Source of the DNA: an uncultured delta proteobacterium
Lineage (GTDB): Bacteria > Myxococcota_A > UBA9160 > JAFDET01
Reading direction: 5' to 3'
Length of the DNA: 64,000 nucleotides
Assembly (NCBI GenBank): GCA_947259215.1
Contig: CAMYLJ010000010.1
Location: 11,891-75,890, forward strand
The notes beneath the pieces were generated by a model. It saw nothing but the letters and a program-made list of their open reading frames with translations. It did not search any database and had not been told where the DNA came from. Positions 28,863-36,280 of this stretch are shown here, piece after piece; the stretch's first letter is position 1, and each line of letters begins with the position of its first letter. A program made the position numbers and the translations under genes.

Positions 28863-29117
28863 ATGGCAGGGATCGCAGGTGTGGAGCTCACGGAGAAGAT
28901 CCGGACGATCGTGGCAGGGCAGCTCGGCGTCGAGGCGACCGAGGTCGTCCCCCAGGCGAGCATCCTCGATGACCTCGGGGCGGATTCCCTGGACGTGGTG
29001 GAGCTCGTGATGGTGCTCGAGGAAGAGTTCGACATCGAGGTGCCCGACGAGGACGTCGAGGCGATCCGCACGGTCGCGGACGTCGAGACCTACGTCTCGT
29101 CCCGGGTCGCCGCCTAG
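28863..29117 (+). CDS. acpP: Acyl carrier protein
   Basis: The 84-residue acidic four-helix protein has the phosphopantetheine serine in [13 protein letters not shown] (Ser42) and the recognition helix that follows, [12 protein letters not shown]. It carries acyl intermediates for fatty acid and lipid A synthesis (LpxD in this same group uses acyl-ACP). It is not flanked by fab genes here, so it may be a second ACP rather than the main one. The end overlaps the convergent small membrane protein gene by 4 nt. Confidence 0.95.
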
Positions 29118-29386
29118 TCGCGGGGACGCACGCCGGGCAGCGCGCCGACCCAGCCCAGGGCACCCACCGTCAGGAAGGCCGCCCCGATGGCGACCGGGAC
29201 GCGCCCGCGCAGGGCCTCCCGAACCACCTTGCGGCCGGCTTCCTGCGGGTCGGCGTCGGGAGGCAGCTCGCGGAGCGCCTCGAACATGGCGGGTCCCGCG
29301 AGGATCAGGCCCCACAAGATCACGAACAGAAAGAAGTACACGAGCCCCAGCGCGAACCGCGGCTGAAAGGTGGCCCGCTGCGCCAT
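29114..29386 (-). CDS. Small two-TM membrane protein
   Basis: The 90-residue protein has two hydrophobic segments, [20 protein letters not shown] (about 13-32) and [20 protein letters not shown], joined by a charged loop ([20 protein letters not shown]). Function unknown. The start is supported by TAGCGT on the minus strand 6 nt before the ATG and no SD. It converges on acpP with a 4-nt overlap. Confidence 0.65.
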
Positions 29387-29404
29387 GGGCCGACGCTAGC
29401 CCGT

Positions 29405-30009
29405 TCGGGCATCGAGGCGAAGGCACGCCGGCGGCGAGGCCTGCGTGCTGCGGGGCGTCGGCCGGGTGGGGCCCAGCGCGCCTGGGCCTTACAGGCGAAA
29501 TGGTGAGGTCGTGGTCGTTCTTCCACGGCGGCGGCGTCTGCGCACCGGTAGCCGTCTCCGTAACGAGCTGGAGGAGTGCGTTCGCGAACCCGGCCAGCGC
29601 GGACCTCCGGGCGGGCTGGCAGCACGGCCCTGCCGCCCTGGACCCAGCACCCGGCCGTCGTTCCGCAGTGCCGAACGCGATGCCGCGAGCGCTGCGTCCT
29701 CTCTCTTCCGAAGCTCAGGGCCGCGTGCCACGCGTCCGTCACCCGGGGACCGCCGGCCGGGTGCTGGCCACGGGGCGGCAGGGCCGTGCATCGCCGCTCG
29801 CCGCCCGGCCCGCGCAGGCAGGGTCCGGCGCACGCACGGCGTCCAAGCAAGATTCATGAGAGTAGAAGCTCGTGCAGAGCACGGGGCAGTTGGCGTGGGA
29901 CCACCCACGGCCGAGCCACCTCCAAGGACCAGGCGCGCCGTGGCCCACCCGGCCGCCGCCCCGCAGCACGCAGGCCTCGCCGTCGGCGTGCCCGCGCCTC
30001 GATGCCCGA
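29405..30009. repeat. Quasi-palindromic non-coding repeat element, copy A (605 bp)
   Basis: No convincing gene lies between 29387 and 30045. The region is an imperfect nested inverted repeat. The outer arms 29405-29490 and 29924-30009 are both 86 bp and pair with 78 identical positions. Inner arms 29624-29657 and 29754-29787 (34 bp each) also pair, around a 96-bp loop; the stretches between outer and inner arms do not match each other. The whole element recurs in inverted orientation at 34887-35484, including a perfect 34-nt match (29624-29657 with the complement of 35232-35265). No transposase, clear target duplication or stable frame is shared. A MITE-like or structured-RNA element is possible. 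Confidence 0.85.
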
Positions 30010-30045
30010 TCGGGCCGGCGTCCCCCGTGCTAGGGTCGCCTCGGA

Positions 30046-32688
30046 ATGCGGCTGGTGCTGATCGACGCGGCCAACTGCCTGTATCGGGCGTTCTTCGCCC
30101 TGCCGCCGCTGCGCAGCTCGTCGGGCGAGCCCACCAACGCCGTGCTGGGCTTCGTCAACATGCTGAACAAGGTGATCCGCGAGGAGGCTCCGGATCACGT
30201 GGCCGTGGTCTTCGACGCGCGCGGCAAGAGCTTCCGCCACGAGTTCTTTCCCGAGTACAAGGCCAACCGCGACGCCCAGCCCGAGGACCTGTCGGCGCAG
30301 ATGCCGCGGGTGCGCGAGCTGGTGGACGCCTATCGCATCCCGGTGCTCGAGGTTCCGGGCGTCGAGGCCGACGACGTGATCGCCACCCTGGTCGAGGAGG
30401 CCCCCGACGACGCGCAGATCGCCATCGTGTCCACCGACAAGGACCTGATGCAGCTGGTCGGGGAGCGGGTGGTGCTGCTCGACACCATGAAGGATCGCCG
30501 GCTCGACCCGGCGGCGGTGGAGCAGCGCTTCGGCGTCCCGCCGGAAAAGGTGCTCGACACGCGCGCGCTGGTGGGAGATCCGAGCGACAACATTCCCGGC
30601 GTGAAGGGGATCGGCGAGAAGGGCGCGGCGAAGCTCATCTCCGAGTGGGGCAACCTGGAGACCCTGCTGACGCATGCGGGCGACGTGAAGGCGAAGCGCG
30701 CCCGCGAGGCGCTGCAGGAGCACGCCGAAGTGGCGCGCCTCTCGAAGCGGCTGGCGACGTTGAAGCGCGACGTGGAGCTGCCCTCGGGTCTCGAGGACCT
30801 GCGCCCCGGCGAGCCGGACATCCCCCGCCTGCGCGCGCTCTTCGCGCAGCTGGGCTTCAGCCGGCTGCTCGATCAGCTGGAAGGCCAAGGCGGCGGCGAG
30901 GGAGCGGCGGACGCGGCGACGGCGAGCGAGCTGGAGCCGGCGTCGGTGGTGCGGGACGCGGAGGCGCTCGCCGGCCTGGCCGCGGCGGCCGACACGGGTG
31001 CGCCTGCGACGCTCGTCCTCGTCGAGGAGACCCGCGGCGATCCCGCAGCGACGCCGCGCCCCTTCGCCCTGGGACTGGCTGTCGGTTCCGAGGCGGTGCT
31101 CGTGCCCGTCGACGAATCCCTGCGCGAGCCGCTGGCGGGCCTGCTGGGGGGCGCCTGGGCGGCGCGCGACAGCCACCGCATGCAGCGGGTGCTGGGCGAC
31201 TGGGAGCTGGCGCCGGCGCCGGCGGTCTTCGACGTCGAGATCGCGGCCTTCCTGATCGATCCGGCCGCGCAGCGCACCACCACCGCCCTGGCCCAGGCCC
31301 ACCTGGGCGCTCCGGTGCGGACCTTCGAGGAGCTGGTGGGGCGCGGCGCGCGGGCCACCCCGGTGGAGAACCTGCCGGAGGCGGATCTGGCTGCGTGGGC
31401 CGCCGAGGAAGCGCGCGCGTTGGCGCGCCTGCAGCCGCAGCTCGCCGAGGCTCTCGAGCGCGACGGTTTGGCGGAGCTCTTCGAGGAGGTGGAGCTCCCC
31501 CTGGCTGGCGTGCTCGCGCGCATGGAACGCACGGGCGTGCGCGTGGACGAGGCCTTCCTGGGCGAGCTGTCGGAGACCTACACGGCCGAGCTGGCGCGCA
31601 TCGAAGGCGAGATCCACGCCCTGGCCGGGGAGCCCTTCCTGGTGAGCTCGCCGAAGCAGCTGCAACGGATCCTGTTCGAGAAGCTGAAGCTCCCGCCCGT
31701 GAAGAAGACGAAGACCGGCTTCTCCACCGACGAGGGCGTGCTGGAGCAGCTCGCCGCGCAGCACGAGCTGCCCGCGCGCATCCTGGCGCACCGGCGCCTG
31801 GCCAAGCTGAAGAACACCTACGTCGACGCGCTGCCGCCCCTCGTGAATCCCGAGACCGGCCGCATCCACCCGAGCTTCCACCAGACCGGCGCGGCCACCG
31901 GGCGTCTCTCGTGCACCAACCCGAACCTCCAGAACATCCCGATCCGGACGGAGGAGGGAATCCGCATCCGCGAGGCCTTCGTGCCCGCCGAGGGCGCCGT
32001 TCTGCTGTCGGCGGACTACTCGCAGGTGGAGCTGCGGATCCTGGCCCACTTCTCCGGCGACGAGAGCCTGATCGACGCCTTCGCCTCGGGCGAGGACGTC
32101 CACCGACGCACCGCGGCCGAGGTCGCGGGCATCGATCCCGACGCCGTGACGCCGGACCAGCGCGCCCGGGCCAAGGCGATCAATTTCGGCATCATCTACG
32201 GCTCGACGGCCTTCGGGATCGCGAACCAGCTGGGCATCGCCAGCGCCGACGCCCAGGAGACGATCGACACCTACTTCCAGCGCTATCGGGGCGTGCGCCG
32301 CTTCCTGGACGAGACCGTCGAGCGCGCCCGCGAGGAGGGCTACGTGCGCACCCTGCTCGGGCGGCGCCGCTACCTGCCCGACCTGCGCTCCCGCAACCGG
32401 GTCCTGCGCCAGGCGGCCGAGCGGATGGCGGTCAACACCGTGATCCAGGGCACGGCGGCGGACCTGATCAAGAAGGCCATGGTGGAGGTGGAGCAGGCGC
32501 TCGGGGACGAGGGCCTGGCCGCCCGCATGATCTTGCAGGTCCACGACGAGCTGGTGGTCGAGGCTCCCCGCGCCGAGGCCGAGCGGGTCGGCCGGCTCCT
32601 CGGGGACCGGATGCAGGGCGTCTACGCCCTGGAGGTGCCTCTGATGGTGGACGTCGGAACCGGCCAGACCTGGCGCGAGGCGCACTGA
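30046..32688 (+). CDS. polA: DNA polymerase I (proofreading domain apparently inactive)
   Basis: The 880-residue protein has three parts: a 5'-3' FEN-type nuclease (about 1-290: LIDAANCLYRAFFAL, VPGVEADDVIATLV, LVGDPSDNIPGVKGIGEKG), a degenerate 3'-5' exonuclease-like domain (about 300-470) and the polymerase domain (about 480-880). Polymerase motifs A (DYSQVELRILAHFSGDESL), B (RAKAINFGIIYG) and C (QVHDELVVE) are intact. The exonuclease acidic residues are missing: the DxE of Exo I reads VEE and the aspartates of Exo II and III are replaced. A TAGGGT box 9 nt before the ATG suggests a leaderless start. Confidence 0.96.
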   Translation: MRLVLIDAANCLYRAFFALPPLRSSSGEPTNAVLGFVNMLNKVIREEAPDHVAVVFDARGKSFRHEFFPEYKANRDAQPEDLSAQMPRVRELVDAYRIPVLEVPGVEADDVIATLVEEAPDDAQIAIVSTDKDLMQLVGERVVLLDTMKDRRLDPAAVEQRFGVPPEKVLDTRALVGDPSDNIPGVKGIGEKGAAKLISEWGNLETLLTHAGDVKAKRAREALQEHAEVARLSKRLATLKRDVELPSGLEDLRPGEPDIPRLRALFAQLGFSRLLDQLEGQGGGEGAADAATASELEPASVVRDAEALAGLAAAADTGAPATLVLVEETRGDPAATPRPFALGLAVGSEAVLVPVDESLREPLAGLLGGAWAARDSHRMQRVLGDWELAPAPAVFDVEIAAFLIDPAAQRTTTALAQAHLGAPVRTFEELVGRGARATPVENLPEADLAAWAAEEARALARLQPQLAEALERDGLAELFEEVELPLAGVLARMERTGVRVDEAFLGELSETYTAELARIEGEIHALAGEPFLVSSPKQLQRILFEKLKLPPVKKTKTGFSTDEGVLEQLAAQHELPARILAHRRLAKLKNTYVDALPPLVNPETGRIHPSFHQTGAATGRLSCTNPNLQNIPIRTEEGIRIREAFVPAEGAVLLSADYSQVELRILAHFSGDESLIDAFASGEDVHRRTAAEVAGIDPDAVTPDQRARAKAINFGIIYGSTAFGIANQLGIASADAQETIDTYFQRYRGVRRFLDETVERAREEGYVRTLLGRRRYLPDLRSRNRVLRQAAERMAVNTVIQGTAADLIKKAMVEVEQALGDEGLAARMILQVHDELVVEAPRAEAERVGRLLGDRMQGVYALEVPLMVDVGTGQTWREAH

Positions 32689-32705
32689 GGCGAATAGGAC
32701 GGTCC

Positions 32706-33308
32706 ATGGGCACGTCCAAGCAGAGGCTGGAGGGGCCGAGCGATGTCGAGGCGGTGGAAAACGCCCGGCAGGGGGATCATGCTGCGTTTCGGGTCCTCGT
32801 GGAGCGGTATCAAGGGCGGGCCTATCGGCTGGCCTTGCGGGTCCTGCGCGACGAAGAGAGCGCCCGCGACGCGGTCCAGGAGGCCTTCCTCAAGGCGTAT
32901 CGCTCCCTCGATCGCTTCCAGGGACGTTCGAGCTTCTACACGTGGTTCTATCGGCTTGTGGTAAATCTGTGCCTCGACATGCGACGCCGCGACCGCTCCG
33001 ACCGACACGTCGAGTGGGCCGAGGAGCTGATCCACCCGTCGGATCAGCCCGGGGATCCGTCCCGGGAGGAGGCCGACGGGGGGCCCGCCGGGGCGCTCGA
33101 GCGGGCCCAGATCCGGGAGCGGGTGGCCGCGGCGATCGATCAGCTTCCCGACGTGCAGCGCGAGACCCTGATCCTGCGCGAGGTCGAGGGCCTGAGCTAC
33201 AAGGAGATTGCGGAGTCGCTCGGGATCTCCAAGGGAACGGTGATGAGCCGGCTCCACTACGCGCGCAAGAAGGTGCAGACGATTCTCGAAGACGAGGGCG
33301 TTGCATGA
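32706..33308 (+). CDS. ECF (RpoE-like) sigma factor
   Basis: The 200-residue protein has sigma region 2 (YRLALRVLRDEESARDAVQE, FLKAYRSLDRF, SFYTWFYRLVVNLCLD) and region 4 (LPDVQRETLILREVEGLSYK, EIAESLGISKGTVMSRLHYA). It is of the common RpoE/ECF02-like type with an anti-sigma gene directly behind it (ATG overlapping the stop). It starts 17 nt after polA. The regulon is unknown; the coupled exported proteins suggest envelope stress. Confidence 0.93.
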   Translation: MGTSKQRLEGPSDVEAVENARQGDHAAFRVLVERYQGRAYRLALRVLRDEESARDAVQEAFLKAYRSLDRFQGRSSFYTWFYRLVVNLCLDMRRRDRSDRHVEWAEELIHPSDQPGDPSREEADGGPAGALERAQIRERVAAAIDQLPDVQRETLILREVEGLSYKEIAESLGISKGTVMSRLHYARKKVQTILEDEGVA

Positions 33309-33787
33309 AGGAGCGGCGCCTGCACGCCTATCACGACGGTGAGCTCTCCCCGGGCGCGGAGGCAGGTGCCGCCCGTCAGCTGGAGCGTTCGCCCGAGGAT
33401 CGCGCCGAGCTGGCCCGCCTGGCCGTCGTCGGCGACTGGGTGCGCGAGGCCGACGCGGCCGGGGGTGGCGACGTTCCGGACCTGTGGGACGGGATTGCCG
33501 CCCGGCTGCCGGCCATCGACGCCGAGCGCGCGGAAGCGCAGGCCGCCCGCGGCTGGTGGTGGCGTCCGTTCCTGGCGGGCGCGGCGGCGACGGCCGCCAC
33601 CGCGGCCGTGGTCCTGACCCTCTTCCTCCAGCCCGCCACGGGCAGCGCCGACGTGGTGCAGTGGCTCGACGCCGAGGGCGCGCCGGTGATGGTGTTCGAC
33701 GCGGAAGACGGGACGACGGTGATCTGGGTGCTGGAGGAGGAAGGCGGCGAAGAGACTTCCGGAGGAGGGTCGCGTGGTCTGGCGTAG
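33305..33787 (+). CDS. Probable membrane anti-sigma factor
   Basis: The 160-residue protein has an N-terminal cytoplasmic segment LHAYHDGELSPGAEAG with the helix pattern of anti-sigma domains, but without the His-Cys-Cys zinc site. One transmembrane helix follows (about 85-108: WWWRPFLAGAAATAATAAV), then a periplasmic part with VVQWLDAEGAPVMVFDAEDG and an acidic, glycine-rich tail. Its ATG overlaps the sigma stop. It should hold the sigma factor at the membrane until a signal releases it. Confidence 0.8.
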   Translation: MKERRLHAYHDGELSPGAEAGAARQLERSPEDRAELARLAVVGDWVREADAAGGGDVPDLWDGIAARLPAIDAERAEAQAARGWWWRPFLAGAAATAATAAVVLTLFLQPATGSADVVQWLDAEGAPVMVFDAEDGTTVIWVLEEEGGEETSGGGSRGLA

Positions 33788-34214
33788 CGTCGCGGCGCTG
33801 GCGCTCGCGGTCGGGGTGTGGCTGGCGGCTCCGGCCCTGGCCCAGCAGGCCCGCCGGGTGAGCTTCCTGATCATGGTGACCCACGCCTCCCAGGAAGCCG
33901 GCAAGATCGACCCGCGCGCGGAGCACCTCCACAGCAAGCTGCACCGCGACTTCCGCTACCAGAGCCTCGAGGTACTGGAGCAGCGCCAAATGCGGCTCTC
34001 CATGGACGAGATCGGCGAGATGCAGCTCCCGACCGGGAGCCTGCTCAAGCTGCGCCCCCTGAACCTCTCCGGCGATCGGGTGCTGGTGGCGGTGGAGGTG
34101 GGCCGGATGCGGACCGACCTTCGCATGAAGAACAAGAAGATCGTGATCCTGAGCGACCCCAAGGGTTACCGCGGCCGGGGCCGGATCGTGATCAGCTTCG
34201 AGCCCGACTTCTGA
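33774..34214 (+). CDS. Exported protein of the sigma/anti-sigma operon
   Basis: The 146-residue protein has a Sec signal peptide (about 1-23, ending APALAQQ). The mature part is a small beta-rich domain with VSFLIMVTHASQ, DFRYQSLEVLEQ and basic segments RTDLRMKNKKIVIL and GRGRIVISFEPDF. The family is not recognised. It overlaps the anti-sigma gene by 14 nt, so it is translationally coupled, and may be a sensor or a target of the same envelope response. Confidence 0.7.
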   Translation: MVWRSVAALALAVGVWLAAPALAQQARRVSFLIMVTHASQEAGKIDPRAEHLHSKLHRDFRYQSLEVLEQRQMRLSMDEIGEMQLPTGSLLKLRPLNLSGDRVLVAVEVGRMRTDLRMKNKKIVILSDPKGYRGRGRIVISFEPDF

Positions 34215-34310
34215 GCAGGCTCCTCTCCAGCCCGCCTCCAGGATCCCCCCGTGGGGAAAAGCGCCGGGATCGTTCGATATCGGTGACACTTCCCGAGCGC
34301 GGATGCCACC

Positions 34311-34378
34311 TATAGAGTGACAACACAGATCCCCTTCCCAGGGAGGCCCGGCGTCCGCGAGGATCCGGGCTTTTCCCT
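34311..34378 (+). terminator. Rho-independent-type terminator with an upstream -10-like box
   Basis: A GCCCGG/CCGGGC stem (34346-34351 with 34365-34370) is followed by TTTT. It lies about 130 bp behind the stop of the exported-protein gene and would end that operon. A TATAGA box (34311-34316) sits just upstream, so a short RNA of about 55 nt could also be made here. Nothing else was seen in the 200 bp between 34215 and 34415. Confidence 0.5.
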
Positions 34379-34415
34379 TTCTGGGGCGGCGGCTTGGAGC
34401 CTGGGGGGCGGCGGG

Positions 34416-34736
34416 CTAGCGCCGGCCGCCGTGGCTGCCGATCGGGTCGACGAAGGTGTAGGTGAAGGGCTCCCGCACCAGGTAGTCGAAGGGCTTGTCC
34501 ACGTCATCCCGTCGGATGAGCCAGGTGAAGCCGCCGACCGGCACGAAGAGGGCCGCTCCGACCGCCGTCATCACGAGCCCGGCCGGGCGCAGCAGCGCGA
34601 TGTCCACGAGGATCGGCACGTTGTTCGGGTCGATCTCATCCAGAGAGCGACCGCTAGCGGATGCGGGCGCCGCCAGGGCGACCAGGAGCCCGGCCACGGC
34701 CAGACTCGTCACGATGCTGCGAATTCGACGGACCAT
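34416..34736 (-). CDS. Small exported or membrane protein
   Basis: The 106-residue protein has a signal peptide (about 1-28: VTSLAVAGLLVALAAPASAS). A hydrophobic stretch follows, ILVDIALLRPAGLVMTAVGA then ALFVPVGGFTWLI, and a short tail with FDYLVREPFTYTFVDPIGSH. The LLRPxGL...GxxLFxPxxxFTWL pattern recurs in small proteobacterial proteins of unknown role. A GGAGGAGGGAG SD fixes ATG 34736; the longer frame upstream enters repeat copy B. Confidence 0.72.
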   Translation of the reverse strand: MVRRIRSIVTSLAVAGLLVALAAPASASGRSLDEIDPNNVPILVDIALLRPAGLVMTAVGAALFVPVGGFTWLIRRDDVDKPFDYLVREPFTYTFVDPIGSHGGRR

Positions 34737-34886
34737 GCCTGTCTCCCTCCTCCAGGGCTGAGGTTGGCTTCCTATCGGCCCTCCAACCCAGAAGATGAAG
34801 CAAAAACCCTGGCTTGCGCGGGCCGACGCCTCTCCCACGCGCAACCCCGGCGCCAAGCGCGCGGCCGCGCTCCCGGAACTGCCTCT

Positions 34887-35484
34887 TCGCGCATCGAGGC
34901 GCGGGCTCGCCGCCGCGGGGGCCTGCGCGCCTGCGGGGCGTCGCCCGGGTGGGCCATGGGGCGCCTGGTCCTTCGAGGCGAATTGGCCGCGATTGGTCCC
35001 ACGCCAACCACCGCCTGCCCGGCCTGCGCTTCTGCCCCCGTGCATCTTGCCTGGAAGCCGTGCGTTGGAAGACCCGGCTCGCGCGGGCATGCCGGTGGAC
35101 GGCGCTACCCGGCCCTGCCGCCCCATGGCCAGCACCCGGGCGGCGGGCCCGGGTGGCGACGCGGGGCACGCGGCCCCGAGCTCCGAAAGCGAGAGCGACG
35201 CCCTCGGCATCGCGCCGGCACCGCGGAGCGACGGCCGGGTGCTGGGTCCAGGGCGGCAGGGCCGTGCAGCCAGCCCGCCCGCTGGTCCGCGCAGGCCAGG
35301 TTTCCCGAGCGCACGGCTCTACGCCCGTTACGGTGAGGGCTACCGGCGCGCGAATCCGGCGGTCATGGAGAACGACCACAACCGGTCATTTCGCCCGTAA
35401 GGCACAGGCGCGCTGGGCCCCGCCCGGCCGACGCCCCGCAGCACGCAGGCCCCCGCTGCGGCGTGCCTACGCCTCGCTGCCCGA
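34887..35484. repeat. Quasi-palindromic non-coding repeat element, copy B (598 bp)
   Basis: This is the second copy of the element at 29405-30009, in the opposite orientation. Its outer arms are 34887-34973 and 35399-35484, about 80% identical to each other as inverted repeats. The 34-bp inner arm 35232-35265 is identical to the complement of 29624-29657. The arm-specific blocks of copy A, which are not palindromic within the element, are also found here, so the two copies share a common origin and are not just similar hairpins. No gene was recognised from 34737 to 35515. Confidence 0.85.
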
Positions 35485-35515
35485 TCGGGGGCGGTCTCCC
35501 CCCGACCCGCCCGGG

Positions 35516-36280
35516 TCAGCCCGCGATCAACATTCCTCCGTCGACGGCGACGATCTGGCCCGTGACCAGGTCGGAGCCGGTGACGAGGGAGAGGATCGCC
35601 GCGGCCACGTCTTCCGGGTCGCAGACGCGGCCCAGGGGGGCGCGGGCTTCCATCGCCTGCTTCACGGCGTCGTAGGCGTCACCCAGGCCGCCGGCCAGCC
35701 AGGCACCGGTGATGAAGCCCGGCGCGACGGCGTTGACGCGGATCTTCGGAGCCAGGGCGCGGGCCAGGGTGATGGTCAGGTTGTTCAGGCCCGCCTTCGA
35801 GGCGCAGTAGGGGATCGAGCTGCCGACTCCGGCCAGGCCGGCGACGCTCGAGACGTTCACGATCTCTCCGCTACCGGCATCCTCCAGCGCCCCGCGAGCG
35901 GCCCGCGCACAGTGGAAGGGTCCGAGCAGGTTCACGGCCAGGACGCGCTGCCAGTCGTCGTCCGCCAGGGCGTCCAGGTCCGCGTGCGGCACGAAGACGG
36001 TGGTGCCGGCGTTGTTGACCAGTACGTCGAGGCGGCCGAGCTCGGCGACCGCGGTCTCGACCAGTCCCCGACAGGCAGCGTCGTCGGCCACGTCCGCCTG
36101 TATCGCCAGCGCCTTCACGCCCTTCTCCCGCGCGGCCGCGGCGGTCTCCTCGGCCCCTTCCCGGGATCGGCTGTAGTTGACCGCCACGTCGCAGCCCCGG
36201 GCCGCCAGCGCCAGCGCCGTCGCGCGCCCGACGCCGGTGCCGCCCCCCGTGACGAGTGCCGCCCTGCCTTCCAGCTCCAT
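35516..36280 (-). CDS. SDR-family oxidoreductase (FabG-like)
   Basis: The 254-residue classical short-chain dehydrogenase has the cofactor motif TGGGTGVGRATAL, NNAG, and the Ser-Tyr-Lys catalytic set in NVSSVAGLAGVGSSIPYCASKAG. The C-terminal VTGQIVAVDGGMLIAG is typical of 3-ketoacyl-ACP-reductase-like SDRs. A GGAGG SD lies in front of ATG 36280; the longer frame to 36418 has no support. Substrate unknown. Confidence 0.9.
   Translation of the reverse strand: MELEGRAALVTGGGTGVGRATALALAARGCDVAVNYSRSREGAEETAAAAREKGVKALAIQADVADDAACRGLVETAVAELGRLDVLVNNAGTTVFVPHADLDALADDDWQRVLAVNLLGPFHCARAARGALEDAGSGEIVNVSSVAGLAGVGSSIPYCASKAGLNNLTITLARALAPKIRVNAVAPGFITGAWLAGGLGDAYDAVKQAMEARAPLGRVCDPEDVAAAILSLVTGSDLVTGQIVAVDGGMLIAG

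Follow-up and report, generated by a model that had tools for sequence, protein, structure and literature searches.

The DNA analysed here is a stretch of 64,000 nucleotides (the window) from an uncultured delta proteobacterium (assembly GCA_947259215.1, contig CAMYLJ010000010.1, positions 11,891 to 75,890 of the forward strand). It carries two GC-rich quasi-palindromes of about 600 bp, named A and B, which lie in opposite orientation on either side of a 5-kb segment with polA and a gene for an extracytoplasmic function (ECF)-type sigma factor. An earlier reading of these letters, made without database searches (the sequence-only reading), had proposed three options for the pair: an element like the miniature inverted-repeat transposable elements (MITEs), a large structured RNA or an inversion hot spot. 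The results presented below suggest that A and B are probably two insertions, specific to this lineage, of a single GC-rich intergenic repeat of the foldback (MITE-like) type, which is now decaying. The elements and their arms are the following:

29405..30009, element A, quasi-palindrome of 605 bp with 75% GC, flanked by the start of a small open reading frame (ORF; minus strand) and by polA (plus strand)
34887..35484, element B, 598-bp quasi-palindrome, 77% GC, inverted with respect to A
29392..29495, plus strand, outer left arm of A, 88% complementary to 29919-30022
29919..30022, minus strand, outer right arm of A, pairing with 29392-29495
29622..29664, minus strand, inner left arm of A (core half-unit), 86% complementary to 29747-29789
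29747..29789, plus strand, inner right arm of A (core half-unit), core motif CGGGTG-N13-GGCAGGGCC
35104..35163, minus strand, inner left arm of B, 75% complementary to 35211-35270
35211..35270, plus strand, inner right arm of B, pairing with 35104-35163

Structure and copy number of the two palindromes

Both elements were recovered where the sequence-only reading had placed them, in opposite orientation and related over their full length: A and the reverse complement of B share 80.9% identity over 613 columns (545 bits, BLASTN). An exact run had been reported as 34 nt long, but the longest one measures 39 nt. Each copy is palindromic from end to end, as had been claimed, since it aligns by BLASTN with its own reverse complement over its whole length (70.7% over 659 columns for A, 68.2% over 613 columns for B). 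In a self-comparison with a limit of 1 kb the two palindromes scored 252 and 164 bits, respectively, while the next-best site of the window reached 53.6 and none of five first-order Markov shuffles of the window exceeded 46.4 bits. The nested arms described for A were confirmed, with outer arms of 104 nt (88% complementarity), inner arms of 43 nt (86%) and a palindrome that extends inward to an 82-nt loop; in B, with arms of 60-69 nt that are 72-75% complementary, the value of about 80% given before was slightly high, the outer arms being at 72-74%. The terminal sequences of the elements are inverted repeats (TCGGGCATCGAGGCG) that run on to the centre, and the ends are well conserved between arms. 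No tandem repeats were found. The GC content of the window as a whole is 73%.

A and B carry no coding signal. The alignment of B with A turned round contains nine gaps (1, 1, 2, 4, 1, 1, 1, 1 and 1 nt), the substitutions between them (51 transitions and 55 transversions) have no consistent 3-base period, and none of eight frames across the copies matched a Pfam family above cut-off, the single match (E=0.13) being below its own. The earlier statement that no recognised RNA family is present held, with no Rfam matches up to E=1 across 29100-35600. The copies are thus non-coding, and their origin as a protein gene is close to refuted.

The BLASTN comparison that the sequence-only reading had called for was done against the genome assembly to which the window belongs (5.70 Mb in 128 contigs) and 59 genomes of relatives. 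In the whole assembly A matched itself, B and otherwise short stretches only, among them two relatives of the core alone, at C11:247538-247947 and C30:88576-88707; the latter is truncated by the contig end, whereas the C11 core has an inverted partner (30 nt, 90%). An exact core pattern had six sites in the assembly (four in A and B, one in C11 and one in C30), and the eight sites with one mismatch are equal to the noise of a reversed control (7 sites in all). The same six half-units were obtained with a sequence-only model of the core (R1, E <= 8e-19), for which the best value in 10 other genomes was E=0.0017 (60 genomes scanned, own included); a similar model of the outer arms (R2) found, above chance, nothing but the four arms of the pair (E <= 1.3e-25), with the next match at E=0.0015 (11 genomes, own included). 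By BLASTN and the core model, no match to the element above chance was obtained in the 59 relatives. Hence the pair belongs to a single, very small family, found in one genome only, with two full copies and two core fragments. A finding of only two copies with no covariation in their pairing was what the sequence-only reading had named as speaking against it, and the copy numbers given here, together with the weak covariation described below, come close to that.

Several candidate matches were rejected. Judged by eye, the BLASTN match in genome G013 is polA coding sequence, that in G045 is coding sequence too, and that in G048 is an intergenic stretch of 61 nt; a match on contig C8 of the own genome (L007) is apparently in coding sequence. 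A collection of plasmid DNA gave no match to the element, and two exact-pattern scans of viral contigs gave 0 matches each. The exact-pattern scan of genome contigs returned 11 stretches, all counted as chance: around the core they match A, B or C11 locally over 33-60 nt at best, and they have neither element-length similarity nor a long palindrome.

Insertion history of the two sites

The genes and motifs around the copies, listed below, include polA and the ECF-type sigma gene between A and B, as previously described. The function of the two -10-like motifs is proposed from similar sequence in relatives.

29114..29386, minus strand, small ORF of 90 amino acids without Pfam match, upstream of A and, in relatives, also upstream of polA
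29393..29398, minus strand, putative -10-like motif TAGCGT of the small ORF, adjoining A on the left
30031..30036, plus strand, putative -10-like motif TAGGGT of polA, adjoining A on the right
30046..32688, plus strand, polA (DNA polymerase I)
32706..33308, plus strand, ECF-type sigma factor
34416..34736, minus strand, small ORF of 106 amino acids without Pfam match, left of B
35516..36280, minus strand, short-chain dehydrogenase gene, right of B

Across the order, a small divergent ORF precedes polA with a short spacer between them. The gap measures 41-178 nt in all 14 relatives that have both genes on one fragment, versus 660 nt here (21 relatives were compared, and seven were dropped for lack of a usable match to the small ORF, two of them because the contig ends). 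Three genomes of the same family, G001, G002 and G003, gave a closer view of the two sites. At the polA site of G001, two -10-like motifs face apart with only a short spacer, while in the window like motifs flank A. Site B could be followed in G002 and G003, the two same-family genomes that span it, and in both of them the two flanks align and B is absent. Both A and B thus seem to have been gained in this lineage, given the small gaps before polA in relatives and the B-free site in G002 and G003, and at the level of sequence comparison they are shown to be lineage-specific insertions in intergenic DNA. Of the three options proposed for the pair, the MITE-like one fits best with both copies being insertions of this kind.

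Other insertions are found at the polA site. G002 has a hairpin with a G-rich arm beside polA and a sequence like repetitive extragenic palindromic (REP) units beside the small ORF, and in G003 the hairpin version is on contig C208 and the other, REP-like version on contig C221. This site thus takes insertions repeatedly, because the inserts of G002 and G003 differ and G003 has two versions. The latter (L088 and L201, respectively) stand within one metagenome-type assembly and are presumably strain variants, which suggests strain-level turnover of intergenic inserts upstream of polA.

Gene order was compared with the same three genomes. G001 shares tetR-acp-small ORF-polA-(sigma)-orf147 and G002 and G003 share polA-orf147-short-chain dehydrogenase gene-sucA, all in the same relative directions. 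It follows from this synteny that the 5-kb segment is in the ancestral orientation in this assembly and that the bracketed genes did not arrive with A and B. Within the extent of their contigs, G001, G002 and G003 gave no sign of an inversion of the segment, so that the option of an inversion hot spot was not upheld.

A separate observation concerns the non-coding block at 34317-34380, downstream of orf147 (which ends at 34214). It has matches of 23-74 nt (82-100% identity) with an invariant GATCCCCTTCCCAGGGAGGCCCGG-like core in all six syntenic relatives, a folding z of -2.3 and no Rfam match, and it is a candidate conserved terminator or small RNA.

Arm pairing and other repeats of the genome

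The state of the pairing was analysed with a four-arm (quartet) test, in which the left and right arms of A and those of B, brought into the orientation of A, were compared column by column (290 ungapped columns, with 19 gap columns dropped). All four arms are identical in 162 columns. Left arms are separated from right arms, with the copies agreeing, in 40; one arm is odd, i.e. it carries a pair-breaking change, in 60; A is separated from B with both arms agreeing (concerted change) in seven; none is crossed, and 21 have three or more states. From these counts, the arms diverged before A and B split, and most of the later changes break pairs. About 1.0-1.4 concerted columns are expected under independent change, and seven or more were reached in 0, 0, 1 and 1 of 400 simulations, depending on which of four settings was used. 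A stretch of 4 nt contains three of the seven (29434, 29435 and 29437), a cluster of the kind that a single template switch would produce. We read the concerted changes as occasional arm-to-arm copying rather than strong selection on the stem. Mismatches of the G-U type and their A-C counterparts are balanced on the two strands (15 versus 21 in A, 16 versus 19 in B) and therefore no transcribed strand stands out. The previous description of arms that have diverged yet keep their pairing is thus borne out in small part by the concerted columns, the 60 columns changed in one arm pointing the other way.

How maintained pairing looks in this genome can be seen in a second hairpin family, with 11 copies of about 110-120 nt (L194-L200, L058:1281-1399, L062:1655-1770, L139:1294-1411 and L132:270-385) that have a common core (GGAGCGRCGCCTGTGAGCGCGCTGACGGA ... 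GCGCGCGAACCGAAG). Its basal stems of 17-23 bp are very different between copies and paired within each: 18 of 21 pairs have changed on both sides, and 94.3% of 209 cells are paired. The covariation score was 0.643, versus 0.171 for shuffled and at most 0.122 for slid structures; the stem coordinates were taken from the same sequences, which favours the unslid structure, but both controls are still far below. A strict pattern of this family had seven sites in the own genome, none in the 59 relatives and none in the reversed control, and five loci scanned with Rfam (L008, L062, L067, L132 and L139) gave no match at the gathering score. A and B are unlike this family.

The genome also contains a dispersed REP-like intergenic family in more than 30 places (L042, L044-L071), often close to gene ends, made of a hairpin (GGAAGTCGGC...GCCGACTTCC) followed by GCTTGGCGCTGTCGCTGAGACCGCTGCGCGC; in L135 two inverted units of it form a 265-bp quasi-palindrome. 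Two genes for Y1 (REP-type) transposases are found on contig C26 (L148 and L149), each with an inverted repeat of the GGGGACG... type some way off on both sides.

Origin of A and B and alternative explanations

The insertion of a single repeat family that is now decaying would account for these observations as follows. The ancestral element would have been an inverted pair of halves of roughly 300 bp that acted as one foldback-type element. It would have inserted at least twice, between the divergent start regions of the small ORF and polA in the case of A and between the short-chain dehydrogenase gene and a small ORF in that of B, and both copies would have decayed since. Much of the present pairing would go back to the initial inverted duplication, and template switching from arm to arm would have occurred occasionally. 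A transposase may have been the mover, and one copy may derive locally from the other, B being a copy of A, since just 5 kb separates the only two full copies in a genome of 5.7 Mb. The analysis showed no selected function of A or B.

Foldback-type inverted-repeat elements, known mainly from eukaryotes, have long inverted arms that form most of the element, and A and B resemble them in this. Prokaryotic MITEs, in the part of the literature considered here (PMC10969869), are usually shorter than 500 bp, AT-rich, intergenic and multicopy, with terminal repeats of 4-30 bp and flanking direct repeats that are present when young and may be lost with age. With prokaryotic MITEs such as Correia, ERIC, Chunjie and QMITE, A and B share a non-coding, intergenic nature, inverted terminal sequence, insertion in one lineage relative to others and strong stem-loop folding. 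They differ in being palindromic over their whole length instead of having short terminal repeats, and in that no parent insertion sequence was found (Y1_Tnp was the transposase family sought); A and B are accordingly called MITE-like here, not MITEs. REP sequences, bacterial interspersed mosaic elements (BIMEs) and the REP doublets called REPINs, elements moved by RAYT transposases (PMC3116915), are likewise inverted doublets of hairpin-forming intergenic units, but REP units are abundant and 20-40 bp long, unlike A and B, and REPINs too are far shorter than the pair. The Y1 genes of C26 have a different flanking repeat, and they share no sequence with A or B; all three Y1_Tnp loci detected carry different repeats and have no sequence in common with the pair. 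The identical change of three out of four nucleotides in both arms resembles the footprint of template switching, by which correction of quasipalindromes has been described (PMC8794818); this is a mutation process and not an element family, and one such cluster is present in A and B.

Some of our data weigh against the insertion and decay of a MITE-like repeat. At 605 and 598 bp both copies exceed the usual size of MITEs, they are GC-rich instead of AT-rich, and two full copies is a very low number for a MITE. No clear target-site duplication was seen by eye at A or B, whose ends are not sharply defined, and no transposase was found for them, although only Y1_Tnp (PF01797) was sought and other families were not searched. 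Concerted changes exceed the simulated expectation, so some arm-to-arm coupling exists, and of the 290 columns, 44 in the outer arms and 57 in the inner arms distinguish A from B, which could reflect constraint or conversion. Finally, the folding of both strands is much stronger than that of shuffled sequences (z of -10 to -16), which is what any long quasi-palindrome gives.

Among the alternatives, a role in cis, with A being kept because its ends or a cruciform tune the promoters of polA and the small ORF, is unlikely, though with some real chance of being correct: A sits between two divergent start regions and separates their -10-like motifs, G002 and G003 carry hairpin-type inserts at this site too and the ends are conserved between arms, but G001 and most of the order have no insert there, B is in a different gene context, and a scan, which does not cover organisms with other promoters, found no sigma-70-like promoter. 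We consider it quite unlikely that A and B are two paralogous genes for a large structured non-coding RNA. The excess of concerted changes and the strong folding of both strands would be in line with such an RNA, while the pair-breaking changes that followed the split, the lack of strand bias in the mismatches and the absence of Rfam matches and of relatives in 59 genomes argue against it, and this option was not sustained.

A switch in which recombination of A with B flips the polA segment is very improbable in spite of the inverted copies and their 39-nt identical run, with the same orientation in G001, G002 and G003 as far as contigs reach, no site-specific recombinase among the genes inspected within the segment or next to the copies, and a divergence of 19% that is unfavourable to homologous exchange. 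Slightly harder still to accept is a protein gene that was duplicated in inverted orientation and has decayed: the long open frames through both copies are expected at 75% GC, and neither the indels, the substitution pattern nor the Pfam comparison supports it. As for a composite transposon that carries polA and has A and B as its long terminal repeats, the bracketing by inverted copies would fit, but the bracketed genes are in their ancestral place in G001, G002 and G003 without A and B and each site has its own history, which leaves this idea next to no probability.

The insertion and decay of a foldback-type repeat can thus explain a striking pair of 600-bp palindromes around an important gene, and the four-arm test offers a simple way to tell inherited from maintained pairing; for follow-up work, the covarying hairpin family is a better target than A and B. 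Tentatively, and as a rather unlikely reading, hairpin-type elements that are unrelated in sequence might, in this bacterial family, either land preferentially or be selected in the gap between the divergent start regions of polA and its neighbour. This rests on A here, the G-rich-stem hairpins in G002 and on one G003 contig, and the REP-like inserts in G002 and on the other G003 contig, with none in G001. Some machinery yet to be identified would then recognise such sites or hairpins, A and B being its largest substrate, and a site preference, if true, would point to unknown mobilising machinery in a little-studied lineage.

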